From positions 1 through 13,184 of the forward strand of contig PWGS01000278.1 of assembly GCA_003554505.1 (NCBI GenBank): a stretch of DNA of 13,184 nucleotides, read 5' to 3'. The notes under the pieces are model-generated. The model made no database searches. It was given only the letters and a program-made list of their open reading frames with translations, and was not told the DNA's origin. The translations under genes were made by a program, and so were the position numbers. The first letter of the stretch is position 1; each line of letters opens with the position of its first letter. Below, in pieces: positions 4,962 through 13,184 of the stretch. The DNA is from Desulfonatronospira sp. Its GTDB lineage: Bacteria > Desulfobacterota > Desulfovibrionia > Desulfovibrionales > Desulfonatronovibrionaceae.

Positions 4962-5723
4962 ATGGCCCATCTGGACTTCAAATCCCTCTACAGATGCCTG
5001 CTGCGCAGTCAGCTGGTGGGATGCGCCTTTAATACCCGGGGGCTGCAGAATATCGGCCTGGCCTATGCCCTGGACCCCGGCCTGCAGAAGATTTACTCTG
5101 ATGATCCCCATGGCTTGCAGAGAGCCAGACGCAGGCATCTTAAGTTCTATAATACTCACCCCTTCTGGAATCCTTTACTGGTGGGTATCTTTCTGACCCT
5201 GGAAAGCAAAATTTCCAGGAAGCTGTTCCCACCCGCCTCCCTTCCAGGAGTCAAGTCCACTCTTGTGTACACCCTGTCTGCCATAGGGGACTCCTTTTTC
5301 AGCGGCAGCCTCATGGTCACCTGGTCGCTGGTGACAATGGTCCTGGTCATGGCCGGTTTATACTGGCCGGCCATAATTCTGGGCGTTATTTTTTTTGTGT
5401 CTGTGCAGTTGTTTAAAATATACGTTTTTTATCAGGGGTATGTGCAGGGGATAGTGTTTGTACAGCGGCTCAAGCAATGGAATCTCATCAACTGGGGTAC
5501 CAGGCTCAAGCTTGTCAATTCCTTGCTGCTTCTGTGTTTTTGGCTTGTAATCTGGCCGTTTCAGTGGCATACATTAAACTTTATCGGGATATGCATTCTG
5601 GGACTTCTGATGGCCTGGGCGTTCAAAAGGATACAATGGAGCCGGGAGATTTTTATGGCAGCGGTTTTTCTGTTTCTTCTCCTGCTCCCCTGGGAACAGA
5701 TGGGCCTTGATTTCTTGTTTTAG
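4962..5723 (+). CDS. Mannose-family PTS permease subunit IID
   Basis: The 253-residue membrane protein matches the IID subunit of mannose-type phosphotransferase systems, which forms the sugar channel with IIC. Signatures include NTRGLQNIGLAYALDPGL (24-41), the highly typical RRHLKFYNTHP (57-67), LTLESKISRKL (78-88) and a TLSAIGDSFFSGSL segment (104-117). Several hydrophobic segments follow between about 119 and 250. Family members are usually slightly longer. IIA, IIB and IIC are not beside it, yet HPr and Enzyme I follow directly. It could belong to a permease whose other subunits are encoded elsewhere. ATG 4962 has no strong ribosome-binding site, and a 69-base gap separates it from rsmI. 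Confidence 0.88.
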   Translation: MAHLDFKSLYRCLLRSQLVGCAFNTRGLQNIGLAYALDPGLQKIYSDDPHGLQRARRRHLKFYNTHPFWNPLLVGIFLTLESKISRKLFPPASLPGVKSTLVYTLSAIGDSFFSGSLMVTWSLVTMVLVMAGLYWPAIILGVIFFVSVQLFKIYVFYQGYVQGIVFVQRLKQWNLINWGTRLKLVNSLLLLCFWLVIWPFQWHTLNFIGICILGLLMAWAFKRIQWSREIFMAAVFLFLLLLPWEQMGLDFLF

Positions 5724-5770
5724 ACTTTATCCACCAGCAAATACAGTCTGCCGGGAGTATTTTAACGGAT

Positions 5771-6055
5771 ATGGCGGAAGATAACATCTGCGAGACTACA
5801 ATAAACCTGCATAACGAGTTCGGGCTTCATGCCCGTCCTGCCGGGCGGATAGCCAGGGCGGCCCAGCAGTTCGAGGCCCGGATAAAGCTCGGTTTTGACG
5901 GCCGTGAAGTAGATGCCAAGAGCATCCTGGATATACTAAGCCTGGCGGCACCAAACGGAAGCGCTCTGCGCATCCTGGCCCAGGGGAATGATGCCAGGCA
6001 TGCAGTAGAGCATCTTGAAAGCCTTTTCCGGGAAAAGCTCAGAGAAGATGGATGA
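5771..6055 (+). CDS. ptsH: Phosphocarrier protein HPr
   Basis: This 94-residue protein carries phosphate from Enzyme I to the PTS IIA domains. The active-site motif GLHARPAG places the phosphorylated histidine at H20 and the conserved arginine at R22, equivalent to H15 and R17 of model HPr proteins. S51 in DAKSILDIL aligns with the regulatory Ser46 targeted by HPr kinase, so serine phosphorylation is possible; no such kinase gene is in this window. The N-terminus is about five residues longer than usual. GGGAG at 5753-5757 lies rather far upstream of ATG 5771. A 140-base spacer separates it from ptsI. Confidence 0.95.
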   Translation: MAEDNICETTINLHNEFGLHARPAGRIARAAQQFEARIKLGFDGREVDAKSILDILSLAAPNGSALRILAQGNDARHAVEHLESLFREKLREDG

Positions 6056-6195: not shown

Positions 6196-7965
6196 ATGGC
6201 CTCAAAAGTGTTCAAAGGAATTCCGGTTTCAGCAGGGCTTGCCATAGGCAGGACCTATTTCCTCAATCGCGAAGCCGGTACTTCCATAGTCCGGATCAAT
6301 ATAATTCCGGAACAGGTCCCCCAGGAGACGGCCAGGCTCAAGCAGGGATTCAATGCAGCTCTTGATGAGCTGGAGAACATTCTCAAGAAGGTCCCCCGCG
6401 ACCTGAAAGAGCAGGCCGCTATAATTGATTCGCACATAATGATATTGCGGGACGAAAAGTTTCAGAAATCAGCCTGCGACTATGTACATTCCAGACTGAT
6501 AAACGCGGAGTGGGCCCTGGAAAATGCCGTCAATGACATAGAGAGGGCTTTCAGCCGGATAGAAGACGAATATATCCGCAGCAGGACGCAGGATGTGCGT
6601 CTGGTTGCCGGGCGGGTGCGCAACAAGCTCTACGGTCAGTCCAAAAGTTATGACAGTAAGTCCGAGAGAATGATCCTGCTGGCTCATGATCTTTCACCGG
6701 CTGATACCATAGAGCTTAAGCTGGACAGGATCATGGCCTTTGCCACGGCCACAGGCGGCAAGACCTCGCATGCAGGCATAATCGCCCGTTCCCTGCAGAT
6801 ACCCGCAATAGTCGGCGCCGAAGGGCTGGAAGAAATTCAGGACGATCACGTAGTGATTCTGGACGGTTTCAGCGGAAAGATAATTGTTGAGCCGGATGCG
6901 GAAGAACTTACCCATTACACCGACCTGAAGCAGCGTTTTTCTGAATACTACTCCCAGATAAAGCGCAACTGCTATCTGCCTGCGGAAACCATTGACGGCT
7001 ACCAGATGCAGGTGCTGGCCAACATAGAACTCTTTGAAGAGGTGACCTCGGTAATTGACAACGGCGGGGAAGGTATAGGGCTTTACCGCACAGAGTACAG
7101 CTTTTTAAACCGCAACAACTGGCCTTCGGAAGAGGAGCTTTACGAAGAATACCGGGATATGGCTTCCATAGTCTATCCCCAGAAGGTCGTGTTCCGCACT
7201 CTGGACCTGGGAGCGGACAAAATCTCGCCTCACTTCGGACCTTTGGAAGAAGTGAATCCCGCCCTGGGTCTCAGGGCCATCAGATTCTGCCAGCAGAATA
7301 TAGAGCTTTTCAAGGCCCAGCTGCGAGCCATTTTAAGGGCCAGTACACTGGGAAACGTTGCAGTCATGTTTCCCATGATTTCCGGGCTTCAGGAACTTCG
7401 AGAGGTCAAGGAGATATATTTCGACGTCCGCGAAGAGATGCGCAAGGCGGGCCAGCCATTCAACGATGAGGTCCCTTTCGGGATCATGATCGAGCTTCCC
7501 AGCGCAGTTTTCATTGCCGATGTCCTGGCCAGGGAAGTGGATTTCTTCAGCATCGGCACCAACGACCTCATTCAGTATTCACTGGGAATAGACCGCACCA
7601 ACAGGTATGTATCCTACCTTTATCAGCCCCTGCACCCGGCTGTTTTGCGAAGCATAAAGTATGTGGTTGATGCCGGGCACGAGGCAGGGATCGAGGTCAA
7701 TGTCTGCGGGGAGGTGGCAGCGGATCCCTACTGCATACCCATCCTCATGGGCATGCAGCTGGACTCCATAAGTCTCAACCCCCAGGCCATCCCGGGCATC
7801 AAGCGAATAATCCGCCAGACCACCATGGAAGAGTGCAAGGAGCTGCTGAAGCAGGTACTGACCTCCAGCCAGGTACAGCAAAGCAACCGTCTGGTCCGGG
7901 ACAAAATATTCACCCATTTTCCAGAGGGGCTCATGTTCTATACTTCCCTTATAGAAGAATCCTGA
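6196..7965 (+). CDS. ptsI: PTS Enzyme I (phosphoenolpyruvate-protein phosphotransferase)
   Basis: This 589-residue cytoplasmic enzyme takes phosphate from phosphoenolpyruvate and passes it to HPr. The swivelling phosphohistidine domain has GGKTSHAGIIARS with the active H192 (H189 in E. coli). The C-terminal barrel has YRTE with R298, VVFRTLDLGADK with R334, the metal-binding IELPSA segment (E433), FSIGTNDLIQY, and NVCGE with C504, which match the known PEP-site residues. Length and domain order are complete: an N-terminal HPr-binding helical region, the phosphohistidine domain, then the PEP-binding barrel. AAGGTG at 6182-6187 lies eight bases before ATG 6196. With HPr and IID directly upstream, this is the energy-coupling part of a PTS. 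Confidence 0.97.
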   Translation: MASKVFKGIPVSAGLAIGRTYFLNREAGTSIVRINIIPEQVPQETARLKQGFNAALDELENILKKVPRDLKEQAAIIDSHIMILRDEKFQKSACDYVHSRLINAEWALENAVNDIERAFSRIEDEYIRSRTQDVRLVAGRVRNKLYGQSKSYDSKSERMILLAHDLSPADTIELKLDRIMAFATATGGKTSHAGIIARSLQIPAIVGAEGLEEIQDDHVVILDGFSGKIIVEPDAEELTHYTDLKQRFSEYYSQIKRNCYLPAETIDGYQMQVLANIELFEEVTSVIDNGGEGIGLYRTEYSFLNRNNWPSEEELYEEYRDMASIVYPQKVVFRTLDLGADKISPHFGPLEEVNPALGLRAIRFCQQNIELFKAQLRAILRASTLGNVAVMFPMISGLQELREVKEIYFDVREEMRKAGQPFNDEVPFGIMIELPSAVFIADVLAREVDFFSIGTNDLIQYSLGIDRTNRYVSYLYQPLHPAVLRSIKYVVDAGHEAGIEVNVCGEVAADPYCIPILMGMQLDSISLNPQAIPGIKRIIRQTTMEECKELLKQVLTSSQVQQSNRLVRDKIFTHFPEGLMFYTSLIEES

Positions 7966-9625: not shown

Positions 9626-11140
9626 ATGGCCAAGACTCCCAGCGCGGAAATCAAGGTGGGCATTTTTGTCCTCATAGCCATTGTCCTTCTGGGGTATCTG
9701 ACCACAGTACTCACCAGGGACAGGATAATCACCAGGGATACTTACGAGATCCACGCATATTTTGATAACGTTTCCGGGCTGCGCACCAATTCCCCGGTGG
9801 AAATAGCCGGGATCGACGTGGGCACGGTCAAGGATATCACCCTGCACGAGAACAGGGCCAGGGTTACCATGGCCATACGCCCGGACATATCCATACATGC
9901 CGACTCCCAGGCAACCATCCGCACCAGGGGGGTTCTGGGGGACAAGTTCGTGGAGATCAACCCGGGAAGCGCAACCGAGCCCACCCTGGAGGAGGGCGGA
10001 GTCGTATCCCGCGGGATTCAGCCCACGGACCTGGACCAGGTCATGGCCCGCATAGGAGATATCGCAGATGATATAAGCGAGGTCTCCAGGAGTGTTTCCA
10101 ATGTATTCGGCGGACCTGAAGGCGAGCAGGATATGCGCGAATTTTTCGACAATCTGCGCGAAGCAGCGGTGCATCTGAATCAGATAGTACAGACCAATGC
10201 CCGGGGCATTGAAAATATCGTGGCCAACCTGCAGGATTTTTCCGGGGATTTAAAAACCATAAGCGAGACCAACAAGGAAGGCATCACCCATATTGTGGAT
10301 AACTTTGCCCAGGCCTCCAGTCAGCTCAATGTTTCTCTGCAGCAGCTGGGAGAGATTATGGACACGGCCCGGCACGGAGATGGGCCTGTGGCCACTCTTC
10401 TGGAAGACCGCCAGATGAGCGAGGACATGCGCCGCACTGCTGCATCCCTGGAAAGTCTTACCCGCAAACTGGATGAGGGCGAAGGAACTCTGGGCAAGCT
10501 CATAAGCGAGGATGATACCGGCAGAAAGATCGATGAAGCCCTGGACGGGATCAATGAATTCCTGGAGCGCCACGACCGGTTTCAGACAGCGGTGGATTTC
10601 CGCAGCGAATACATGGCCAGCACCGGAGACATGAAATCATACCTGGACCTGACCCTGCAGCCGGCCGAGGACAGGTTCTATATGCTGTCTCTCATCGATG
10701 ACCCCAAGGGACGCACCCGGACCACGGAAACAGTGACCACCACTAAAAGGGACGGGCAAACCGACAAGGTCTGGGAAAAAGAGGAAAAGACCTACAAGGA
10801 CAGGTTCAAATTTTCCGCTCAGATAGCCAAGAGGTGGAACGACTTCATCCTGCGCGGGGGGCTTATCGAATCCACCGGCGGGTTCGGCATGGACTACTTT
10901 CTCTGGGACGAGCGAATCAAGCTGTACACCGATGTTTTCGACCTGGGAGCGGATCGCCCGCATGTCAAATCCGGGGCCAACCTCTATTTTCTGGACAATT
11001 TCTACCTCACCGCCGGTTTTGACGATTACCTGAGCAAGCACGGGGACAGCTCGTTTTTTGGAGGACTTGGATTTTATTTTACAGACGAGGACCTGAAGTA
11101 CCTTATGTCGTCAGTGCCTGTACCCGACGGCAACTTTTAA
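9626..11140 (+). CDS. mlaD: Long MCE-domain protein MlaD with beta-rich C-terminus
   Basis: The 504-residue protein is far longer than E. coli MlaD (about 180). A single membrane helix (about 11-29) is followed by one MCE domain (about 38-115) with SPVEIAGIDVGTV and RGVLGDKFVEI. A long helical region (about 135-315) includes the G-rich repeat GEGTLGKLI. The last third (about 318-486) alternates polar and hydrophobic residues in eight to ten short strands, such as FKFSAQIAKRW, DFILRGGLIES, RIKLYTDVFDL and FFGGLGFYF. The protein ends with Phe. This fits a chain anchored in the inner membrane whose tail forms an outer-membrane barrel, as described for MlaD of Veillonella; that last step is inference. 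AGGGG lies six bases before ATG 9626. Confidence 0.9.
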   Translation: MAKTPSAEIKVGIFVLIAIVLLGYLTTVLTRDRIITRDTYEIHAYFDNVSGLRTNSPVEIAGIDVGTVKDITLHENRARVTMAIRPDISIHADSQATIRTRGVLGDKFVEINPGSATEPTLEEGGVVSRGIQPTDLDQVMARIGDIADDISEVSRSVSNVFGGPEGEQDMREFFDNLREAAVHLNQIVQTNARGIENIVANLQDFSGDLKTISETNKEGITHIVDNFAQASSQLNVSLQQLGEIMDTARHGDGPVATLLEDRQMSEDMRRTAASLESLTRKLDEGEGTLGKLISEDDTGRKIDEALDGINEFLERHDRFQTAVDFRSEYMASTGDMKSYLDLTLQPAEDRFYMLSLIDDPKGRTRTTETVTTTKRDGQTDKVWEKEEKTYKDRFKFSAQIAKRWNDFILRGGLIESTGGFGMDYFLWDERIKLYTDVFDLGADRPHVKSGANLYFLDNFYLTAGFDDYLSKHGDSSFFGGLGFYFTDEDLKYLMSSVPVPDGNF

Positions 11141-11164: not shown

Positions 11165-11434
11165 ATGGAAGTTGTACTGTTTAAAAGCGAAGAAAGGAAA
11201 AATACCCAGGAGGTGGCCGCAATCCTGCGCCAGATCGCGGACAGGGTGGAATCCGGTGAAGTGGTGCTGACCCGGGGACAGGAGGAGGTCAGGCTGCAGA
11301 TACCTGCCAATGTGACCCTGGAGATCAAGGTGGAGGAAGAAACCAAGAGGACCACGAAGAAATCTCTGGAGATAGAGATTGAGTGGCCTGAAGGTGAAGA
11401 GGGCAGCCCCCGGGGAGATATGAGCATCGGCTGA
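11165..11434 (+). CDS. Amphi-Trp domain protein
   Basis: The 89-residue protein resembles the amphi-Trp domain family, small proteins of unknown function. Typical parts are the N-terminal LFKSEERKNTQEVAAILRQIADRVESGEVVL, a short strand RLQIPANVTLEIKVEE, and the family-defining ending LEIEIEWPEGEEG with its tryptophan. It is highly charged and has no signal peptide or membrane helix, so it is probably cytoplasmic. GGAGG at 11151-11155 precedes ATG 11165 by nine bases. It sits 24 bases after mlaD, so it is likely co-transcribed with the lipid transport genes, but a role in lipid transport is only a guess. Confidence 0.8.
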   Translation: MEVVLFKSEERKNTQEVAAILRQIADRVESGEVVLTRGQEEVRLQIPANVTLEIKVEEETKRTTKKSLEIEIEWPEGEEGSPRGDMSIG

Positions 11435-11528
11435 TGACGATCTTTACTGTTACCCAGAAATTCATGGCGATCCGCATCCTGGTCCGGGTAAACTGCCAGG
11501 AGTCGGATAGTTGTCCGGGACTTGGAAA

Positions 11529-12392
11529 ATGTCCGTTTTGAAAGCTTTGATTGTACATCCTGACCGTGAGGTCACCCTGAAATTACGCGAGTTTTTTGCA
11601 GGGGAAAAGAGGATAAAAATCCTGGGCGAGGCTGTCAGTTCCAATGAGGCCCTGGAGTTGCTGGAAAGCATATCCTATGATGTGTTTTTTCTGGGAATAG
11701 ATCTGCCCAACGGGGTCAGCGGCATGGAGCTTACTCAGATGCTGGCTCAAAGAAAGAGCAGGCCGCACATTGTTCTCATTGCCCCTGACCAGGGGCACGC
11801 CTACAAGGCATTTGAGCTGGGGGTAGCCGACTACCTGATCTGGCCTTTTGAGAAGGGCAGGCTGGAAAACACGGTGGAAAGACTGCTTCGTTATGCCGAT
11901 ATGCCGCACATAGTTGGAAAAGAGGGCTACAATTCGCAGGGGTTGGACCGGTCCAGGGACGATGGAACCGTTCACCTGCCCATGGCGGATGCTGATGAGG
12001 ATTCCTTTTTAAACGCCCTTCGCCAGGCCTGGGACGTGTCGCCCAAAAAGCAGCTGGAGATTGAAAAACTGCCCATAAACCAGGAAGGAAGACTTCTCCT
12101 GGTGCCCTACAACCAGATAGTCTTTGTGGAGGCCTATGAAGACTACAGCTTTGTACACACCTTCAAGGAGAAATTCTTGACTTCCTACCGTCTCAAAAGC
12201 CTTGAAGAAAGACTGAATAAACACGGTTTTTTCCGGGTGCACAGAAAGTACCTGGTGAACCTGGAGATGGTTACAGAGATAGCCTCAATGCCCGGCAGCA
12301 ACTTCATGCTCAGAACTGCGGGCAGGACAAAAATCGAACTGCCCATCAGCCGAAGACGGATCAATGACCTGAAGCAGATTCTGGGACTTTAG
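11529..12392 (+). CDS. LytTR-family regulator with degenerate receiver domain
   Basis: The 287-residue protein has a receiver-like domain (about 3-120), a linker, and a LytTR DNA-binding domain (about 175-285). The LytTR part is intact, with PYNQIVFVEAYEDYSFVHT (193-211) and the signature FFRVHRKYLVNLEMV (234-248). The receiver keeps the overall fold pattern but not its chemistry. The acidic pair is H10-P11, the phospho-Asp position is G56 (LGIDLP), the Thr/Ser position is A85 and the Lys position is W105. It therefore probably does not take phosphate in the usual way and may respond to protein or ligand binding. ATG 11529 gives a normal N-terminus. TTG 11511, preceded by AGGAG at eight bases, is an alternative start adding six residues. 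Confidence 0.9.
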   Translation: MSVLKALIVHPDREVTLKLREFFAGEKRIKILGEAVSSNEALELLESISYDVFFLGIDLPNGVSGMELTQMLAQRKSRPHIVLIAPDQGHAYKAFELGVADYLIWPFEKGRLENTVERLLRYADMPHIVGKEGYNSQGLDRSRDDGTVHLPMADADEDSFLNALRQAWDVSPKKQLEIEKLPINQEGRLLLVPYNQIVFVEAYEDYSFVHTFKEKFLTSYRLKSLEERLNKHGFFRVHRKYLVNLEMVTEIASMPGSNFMLRTAGRTKIELPISRRRINDLKQILGL

Positions 12393-12609
12393 ATGGCCTC
12401 ACCGTTCAACGTGACCTATCAGCCTTTAGTCGATTATCTATGCCAATTTTTCTTGTATGATATAAACATGCCCCTGACCTTGCGGTGGAAGCAGCTGTAT
12501 GCTGGCAGCAAACCGCCTTATAAACCGGTTGCTTGGAGATCCGGGGATCAAAAAATCCAAAATGTTTTTTAATGATTACTATTCGGATCGAGTTTAAAGG
12601 AGGAGTGTT
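12393..12609. other. Intergenic region before acs
   Basis: This 217-base gap is AT-rich and has no recognisable gene. It holds a candidate LytTR-like box ACCGTTCAA at 12401-12409, a candidate promoter at 12458-12466, a GCGGT/ACCGC stem (12482-12486 with 12512-12516) enclosing CAGC/GCTG, the palindrome AACCGGTT at 12523-12530, and GATCC/GGATC at 12538-12549. No hairpin followed by a T-run is visible, so I cannot point to a terminator for the regulator gene. Confidence 0.6.
12458..12466 (+). promoter_or_regulatory. Candidate extended -10 promoter for acs
   Basis: TGATATAAA reads as an extended -10 (TGn followed by TATAAA). The 17-base upstream position has only a weak -35 (CTATGC), which extended -10 promoters tolerate. 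An overlapping alternative -10, TATGAT, is at 12456-12461. Transcription would start near 12473, giving an acs leader of roughly 137 bases. Confidence 0.35.
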
Positions 12610-13184
12610 ATGGAAGACAAAGGAGCCCTTGACTCTTTGCTGCAGGAGGAAAGGATTTTTCGGCCGCTGCCCCAGATGGTGATTGACGCCAACATCAACC
12701 CGCAGGAATATTCCGCGGGGATGAAACAGTGCCAGGAAAATTATCTGGACTACTGGGATGACGCGGCCAAGGAACTGGACTGGTTCAAGAAGTGGGACAA
12801 GGTCCTGTATGATTCCGAGGCCCCTTTCTACAAGTGGTTTACAGGCGCCAAGTGCAATATCGTGTACAATGCGCTGGACAGGCACATTACCACGGCCAAC
12901 AAGAACAAGCTGGCCCTTATCTGGGAAGGCGAGCCCGGGGACACCAAGAAATTCACTTATTACGAACTTTACCGGGCTGTAAACCGCTTTGCCAATGCCC
13001 TGCGTTCCCTGGGCATCAAGAAGGGGGACCGGGTGGTGCTCTATATGCCACCGCTTCCCGAGACCATGATTTCCATCCTGGCGGTGGCCAAGATAGGAGC
13101 TGTGCACAGCATGGTCTTCGCCGGTTTTTCCGCCAAGGCCCTGCGCGAGCGCATCCAGGACGCCGAGGCCAAGCTGGTCATTAC
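12610..13184 (+). CDS. acs: Acetyl-CoA synthetase (N-terminal part, cut by window end)
   Basis: The first 191 codons of an acetyl-CoA synthetase are visible; the window ends before the catalytic core. The enzyme converts acetate, ATP and CoA to acetyl-CoA via acetyl-AMP. Matching N-terminal features are [20 protein letters not shown], the [10 protein letters not shown] segment typical of this family, [37 protein letters not shown], and [35 protein letters not shown] related propionyl-CoA synthetase cannot be fully excluded from this fragment. A strong ribosome-binding site, AAAGGAGGAG at 12596-12605, precedes ATG 12610. The gene probably has its own promoter. Confidence 0.9.

Follow-up and report, generated by a model that had tools for sequence, protein, structure and literature searches.

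A pseudo-receiver LytTR response regulator conserved in Desulfovibrionales and its predicted link to acetate activation

What can a LytTR response regulator control, and by which switch, if its receiver domain lacks the residues of the phosphorylation pocket? This question is raised by a gene of Desulfonatronospira sp. located in a window (the whole stretch of DNA analysed, 13,184 nucleotides) which is an entire contig of a draft genome, 82.6% complete. The features of the locus are shown in Table 1. The gene starts with an ATG at 11529, whose equivalent is also the start of the orthologues, and an alternative TTG at 11511 would add six amino acids. The encoded protein shows both domains of a LytTR response regulator above their Pfam cut-offs: a receiver domain (Response_reg, 45.4 bits, cut-off 30.2) and a LytTR domain (PF04397, about 85.3-88 bits, cut-off 22.6), and the latter looks intact, as the initial annotation of this stretch had put it. 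The LytTR half is also supported by Foldseek matches such as 3d6w, and the receiver fold is ordinary by Foldseek and by VIA-align, whose rows span residues 1-125. Elsewhere in the window of this sulfate reducer, a gene encoding a mannose-type IID protein of the PTS is found beside those of HPr and PtsI (4962-6055 and 6196-7965), and no further PTS permease part is present among the window proteins scanned.

Table 1. Position, strand and basis of the features of the regulator locus in the window.
Feature	Position	Strand	Basis
LytTR response regulator with pseudo-receiver, 287 aa	11529..12392	+	ORF, PF00072 + PF04397, orthologues
Pseudo-receiver domain, residues 4-122	11538..11894	+	
LytTR DNA-binding domain	12090..12383	+	PF04397
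H10-P11-D12 at the acidic pair and next acid, codons CAT CCT GAC	11556..11564	+	
G56 at the phospho-Asp position	11694..11696	+	pairwise alignment, row counts
A85 at the Thr/Ser position, codon GCC	11781..11783	+	
W105-P106 at the Lys-Pro position	11841..11846	+	
Linker helix, residues 154-168, core FLxALxxAW	11988..12032	+	conserved; helix predicted, low confidence
Tandem direct repeat CCGTTCAAC-N12-CCTTTAGTC(GATTA), predicted regulator site upstream of acs	12402..12436	+	
TATGAT, possible -10, 24 bp past the second repeat, without consensus -35	12456..12461	+	inference
acs, acetate-CoA ligase, truncated by the window end	12610..13184	+	NCBIfam, partner in relatives
amphi-Trp domain protein, upstream neighbour	11165..11434	+	PF20068, 99.9 bits

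The canonical phosphorylatable set (acidic pair, Asp, Thr/Ser and Lys) is replaced in this protein by His-Pro, Gly, Ala and Trp, and Pfam and the alignments agree with the initial annotation on these substitutions. The domain is thus recognised as a receiver with its key residues missing, that is, an aspartate-less pseudo-receiver. In a pairwise alignment with the solved receiver 2qv0, G56 lies opposite its Asp and D58 falls at D+2. The search gave 502 homologues, of which 120 were listed, and 46 loci belong to named genomes. The main alignment contains 167 rows (the window, the 46 loci and the 120 listed proteins) and is redundant, with the window's own protein among them. His10 is invariant (164 of 164 rows); P11 is present in 136 of 164, with Glu instead in two, and D12 in 134 of 164. 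Position 56 is occupied by Gly in 141, Ala in 13, Ser in 11 and Pro in one of 166 rows, and by Asp in none. Position 85 shows Ala in 149 and Ser in 17 of 166 rows; Ser is a normal variant here, and those 17 rows were not counted as loss. Position 105 shows Trp in 154 of 167 rows, Phe in five, Leu in four, Arg in two, Gln and Cys in one each and Lys in none, and P106 is found in all 167. A second set of 70 genome-derived rows, which includes the window and involved no residue-based selection, gives a similar distribution: His in 69 and Ile in one at position 10; Gly in 59, Ala in seven and Ser in four at position 56; Ala in 60 and Ser in 10 at position 85; Trp in 65, Phe in three and Tyr and Arg in one each at position 105. 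Further lineages with Phe at position 105 appear among later rows. No aligned Desulfovibrionales orthologue of either set retains the phospho-Asp or the Lys, and the comparison of orthologues proposed by the initial annotation shows that the substitutions are common across the order.

Omega ranges from 0.07 to 0.15 for the receiver and from 0.004 to 0.05 for the LytTR domain in six non-saturated pairwise comparisons; these values are rough, a seventh comparison being saturated and several dS values exceeding 1. The receiver still folds and purifying selection acts on it. The conservation across the order, together with the low omega, indicates that the state of the pocket is not due to drift. 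Between both domains, the linker helix contains A163 and L164 in 71 of 71 and A167 and W168 in 70 of 71 non-redundant Desulfovibrionales rows; this A-L-x-x-A-W core is nearly fixed and the rest of the receiver-LytTR linker is variable.

Outside the order, a second homologue search, started from an outgroup protein, shows a graded loss. Seven proteins (P0132, P0134 and P0137-P0141) have an intact pocket (DDE, D, T, K), and three (P0133, P0135 and P0136) have lost only the Thr. P0121-P0127 have no acidic pair and show Ala or Ser instead of Thr, with Asp and Lys retained, and in a side branch, P0128-P0131, Tyr replaces Asp. The series is imperfect: the side branch retains one acid of the pair, and at position 85 P0130 has Thr and P0131 has Gly. 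In a 67-row tree the successive inward forks have supports of 100/98, 95/85 and 99/96, and the Desulfovibrionales of 100/100. The tree is midpoint-rooted, with the canonical regulators on the far side, and the direction and order of pocket loss are accordingly putative. The initial annotation had described all four changes as occurring together; this holds within the Desulfovibrionales, but in the wider family they range from an intact to a partly lost pocket. Orthologues with the normal residues, which would speak against the reading of the pocket, thus exist on the presumed ancestral branch outside the order and not inside it, and the claim stands for the window protein. The clade with the intact pocket was also sought in 395 genomes of the phylum: 13 genomes matched, none was recognised as that clade, and one of the matches (G232) is a canonical regulator, the same as that of locus L224.

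No histidine kinase gene is present in the window, a contig-length stretch of the draft genome, in agreement with the initial annotation. A wider search, for LytS-type kinases of the PF06580 family, found none in the window's own genome (82.6% complete), none in five genomes of the same genus and none in 30 of the 40 pseudo-receiver carriers of a 61-genome sample. The family is present in 11 of these 61 genomes, always within 2 kb of a LytTR gene other than that of the pseudo-receiver, and the remaining 10 carriers show the kinase beside this second LytTR gene. Nine kinase-linked LytTR genes were tabulated or translated and encode the intact set where aligned; G007 has a second LytTR gene with no PF06580 partner. 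The absence of Asp and Lys from the aligned orthologues of the order, the conservation of the residues that replace them and the scarcity of PF06580 kinases support the pseudo-receiver reading of the initial annotation.

The constant neighbour of the regulator is acs. In 109 of 117 loci it is located downstream on the same strand, at no more than 492 bp. The 117 consist of the 46 loci of named genomes, L047 and one locus from each of 70 of the 105 carriers, with duplicates present and the window included twice. In the window, the acs fragment matches best the NCBIfam acetate--CoA ligase model PRK00174 (223 bits for the first 191 residues; the cut-off for the whole protein is 657). Six of the other eight loci, three of them duplicates, stop 79-515 bp past the regulator, and in two (L067 and L110, from genomes G048 and G123) acs is located elsewhere. 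Among six outgroup loci fetched, acs comes directly after the regulator in L263, L264, L266 and L267; in L265 and L268 no acs was found. The initial annotation had placed the regulator directly downstream of an Mla operon, but the amphi-Trp gene sits between mlaD and the regulator, and mlaD is nearby in only five of the 46 loci of named genomes; some of these 46 contain little upstream DNA. All five are near relatives, as are the seven of the 46 with an amphi-Trp gene nearby, and an Mla association was therefore rejected: the interesting partner is acs. The MlaD protein of the window (504 aa, 9626-11140) shows a long C-terminal extension past its MlaD domain (residues 39-114).

Sampling of 150 genomes of the order showed the regulator in 105, in 94 of the 131 of good quality and in 26 of 36 genera, and the matches in these 105 genomes are free of internal stops. 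The 45 genomes without it include all 11 of one family (f2), all 26 of one genus (g12) and eight others. Since acs is present in 140 of the 150 genomes, including 36 of these 45, the regulator is not required by acs alone.

A tandem repeat of 9-12-9 bp geometry, CCGTTYANC-N12-CCKTTNGCC, is found between the regulator and acs. Of 84 distinct intergenic regions of at least 40 bp, shorter and overlapping ones being excluded, 74 contain it and the other 10 do not. In those 74 regions CCGTTYANC-N12-CCKTTNGCCGAWTA scores at least 19 bits, with a period fixed at 21 bp and a matrix fitted to the same regions it scores, and none of 1680 shuffles, which preserved base composition only, reached 10 bits. 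The window's own genome shows one exact match of the pattern, at 12402; with up to three mismatches there are 20 matches versus 49 for the reversed pattern, so that only the exact match stands out. Exact matches occur in 55 of 105 carriers versus 0 of 45 non-carriers, many of the positives being training sites. Allowing up to one mismatch gives matches in 85 of 105 carriers and nine of 45 others, 94 of 150 genomes in total; the reversed control matches in 49 of 150, so that single matches of this kind are weak. In G048 and G123, where acs is not adjacent to the regulator, the repeat is found before the distant acs with 27-28 bits. In G006 no repeat was found in front of either acs gene or of the regulator, and the sole candidate in G009 scores 9.5 bits. 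Boxes with a 20-bp period were recognised in outgroup loci, three by eye and two by pattern. A scan for sigma-70 promoters gave no match upstream of acs, and thus did not support the TATGAT, and the bases downstream of the repeat show only a weak common signal. The window has no Rfam match at gathering scores, and an Rfam element was accordingly rejected as explanation of the repeat. From its sequence, the repeat is the predicted binding site of the regulator, the protein and the motif being linked by correlation.

Candidate sites are also found before other genes. Promoters of a second acs were compared in 48 carriers and 12 non-carriers, leaving out eleven genomes already examined: 17 of 48 versus 0 of 12 score at least 12 bits and 30 of 48 versus 0 of 12 at least 8 bits. 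The other 31 carrier promoters are below 12 bits, and the 12 non-carrier promoters come from two genera, 11 from g12 and one from g31. In three genomes of one genus (g20) a repeat of 20-25 bits lies between the second acs and a divergent gene encoding an NDP-type acyl-CoA synthetase-GNAT protein, whose domains were checked in two of them. A profile of 69 regulator-acs sites was run on five genomes of a Nitratidesulfovibrio-like genus (g24) which contributed none of them. Genome-wide, the repeat in the second acs promoter ranks first in three genomes and second in two, and the region before a DUF485-SSF (actP-like) operon ranks first in two of the five, in reverse orientation; the E-values are weak (0.05-0.11), and hence it is the rank that matters rather than the score. 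The SSF protein is nearest to the cation/acetate symporter ActP (729.8 and 729.2 bits, slightly below the cut-off of 750), and a divergent pat-like gene lies by the second acs in both loci inspected (L191 and L192). Some repeat-like sites inside reading frames or near apparently unrelated genes, judged by eye, were taken as chance. Two further groups of repeat-like sites are taken as leads only: four genomes belonging to a single genus have one in front of a pyruvate:ferredoxin oxidoreductase gene (21-22 bits; L181, L182, L194 and L195, domains checked in L181), and two genomes, likewise of a single genus, have one in front of nuoA (28 bits; L167:3739-3773 and L168:3514-3548, domain checked in L168).

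These observations make it likely, in our opinion, that the window protein is an orphan LytTR factor freed from phosphorylation control, which binds paired repeats and governs the activation and uptake of acetate. The initial annotation is upheld in the pseudo-receiver and not in its hint at Mla, the conserved partner being acs. The regulator would bind the two 9-bp direct repeats, 12 bp apart, before acs and, in related genera, also before the second acs beside the gene of a Pat-like acyltransferase and before the operon of the actP-like acetate symporter. It would most likely act as an activator, because the repeats sit where LytTR activators bind, upstream of the possible -10. The pocket has been rebuilt: His occupies the first acidic position, Asp is replaced by a small residue and Lys mostly by an aromatic one. 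It probably keeps the receiver competent for DNA binding or dimerising, perhaps tuned by a metabolite. We infer the binding of the repeat by the window protein, the activation, the role of the pocket and its signal.

How the receiver would work in this orphan factor can be explained in more than one way. It may be a locked dimerisation or structural module, the activity being set by the protein level or by promoter competition, to which we give somewhat less than an even chance. Many pseudo-receiver regulators dimerise without phosphorylation, according to a 2025 review (PMC12632262). Moreover, five loci, two of which are the same contig, have a site of 16-21 bits upstream of the regulator itself, a hint that some genera may use autoregulation; such sites are rare, though, only six of 115 regulator-upstream regions reaching 12 bits, and a passive module needs no strict conservation of the pocket. 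The conservation of the replacement residues, with no drift, speaks for a one-component sensor in which His10, Asp12, the small residue at 56 and the aromatic one at 105 would bind a metabolite of the acetate/acetyl-CoA pathways that switches DNA binding. Ligands gate other pseudo-receivers (PMC12632262), and the likely targets belong to one pathway, but Trp105 may just fill the cavity, and we regard this sensor as possible but less likely than not. With similar reserve, the proposal may be extended to the whole order as a kinase-free LytTR sensor of acetate or acetyl-CoA status. It would descend from a two-component regulator whose pocket was lost stepwise, beginning with Thr, followed by the acidic pair and finally by Asp and Lys, with the adjacency to acs kept, outside the order too, and whose emptied pocket, closed by the near-invariant His and Trp, would have become a metabolite or conformational switch.

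Other explanations are less probable. The correlative link between protein and motif would also allow another regulator to bind the repeat, or an element of the acs mRNA to account for it; the LytTR geometry, the co-occurrence with the regulator and the absence of Rfam matches in the window make this unlikely. Phosphorylation at another residue such as D58, which the initial annotation had considered as a working phospho-acceptor, seems very improbable: an acidic residue, Asp or Glu, occupies position 58 in 145 of 166 rows, but this position lies at D+2 and is not invariant (33 rows have Glu, and 20 have Asn, His, Ser or Arg). In addition, neither the acidic pair nor Thr nor Lys is left, and most carriers have no LytS-type kinase. 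D58 was rejected on its position and variability. A decaying gene or an annotation artefact, which the joint loss of four catalytic positions might suggest, is hardly credible given the low omega of both domains and the stop-free matches in the carriers; decay is contradicted by purifying selection.

BtsR (YehT) is the LytTR regulator of a pyruvate-sensing system. Among the NCBIfam models it is the one that matches the window protein best, and each of the 91 proteins in alignment A2 matches it too, but the window protein, with 124.2 bits, is below the equivalog cut-off of 246 and differs from BtsR in that no PF06580 kinase was found and in the loss of the phosphorylation residues. RitR, HP1043, ChxR and GlnR also have a receiver fold without the phosphorylation set; to our knowledge, none of them is a LytTR protein. 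The 2025 review calls the activation and inactivation of bacterial pseudo-receivers a mystery, and its available text makes no mention of LytTR, LytR, Desulfovibrio or Trp (PMC12632262). In published LytTR sites, two repeats of about 9 bp lie 11-13 bp apart (PMC4847170, PMC6193735), a rule equalled by the 9-12-9 geometry of the site predicted here from sequence, and the YehT probe contains ACCGCTTAC, close to the present half-site (PMC4847170). The core box of AlgR, the LytTR regulator of Pseudomonas aeruginosa, CCGTTCGTC, is close to CCGTTYANC, but AlgR is phosphorylated by AlgZ, and the sites described for it have a single core, several being far from the start site, instead of the present tandem (PMC4064291). 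In the HdrRM and BrsRM systems, too, the direct repeats measure 9 bp and are mostly spaced by 12 bp, and they lie immediately before the -35. These systems use a membrane inhibitor partner (PMC6193735), while the window regulator adjoins the amphi-Trp and acs genes.

The closest system is DVU0749 of D. vulgaris Hildenborough, a LytR-type regulator with four DAP-chip targets, which include DVU2969 (acs), DVU2970 (acyl-CoA synthetase plus acetyltransferase) and DVU0443-0448 (PMC3333781). According to the text of that 2011 paper, DVU0749 is in an operon with the acs DVU0748, lacks a kinase in its vicinity and has Gly instead of Asp, its activation by phosphorylation being considered improbable, and it binds promoters of such genes in vitro; direct-repeat sites are named in the text, as distinct from figures and supplements, solely for DVU2394 and DVU1083 (PMC3333781). 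The window protein is alike in its LytR type, the Gly at the phospho-Asp position, the absence of a nearby kinase, the acs neighbour and the predicted targets in acetyl-CoA metabolism, and by this Gly and the adjacent acs it can be assigned, from the published description, to the DVU0749 group as a probable member; Nitratidesulfovibrio relatives are among the proteins compared. The targets predicted in the g24 genomes resemble those published, and DVU0443-0448 would correspond to the DUF485-ActP-like operon. The Gly substitution and the acetyl-CoA role are thus already in print for one species, the Gly being the sole change noted (PMC3333781). No acs-linked LytTR site was found in the literature searched, which covered text rather than figures and supplements and few subscription papers; as far as these searches show, the novelty lies in the conservation throughout the order, in the graded series of pockets and in the operator predicted here. 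Living intermediates between an intact pocket and one replaced completely are found in the family, together with acs as likely constant target and a predicted binding site. The findings suggest that a major group of anaerobes has a regulator devoted to acetate assimilation and, as a counterpart exists in the laboratory strain D. vulgaris Hildenborough, the steps of phosphorylation loss can be tested singly.
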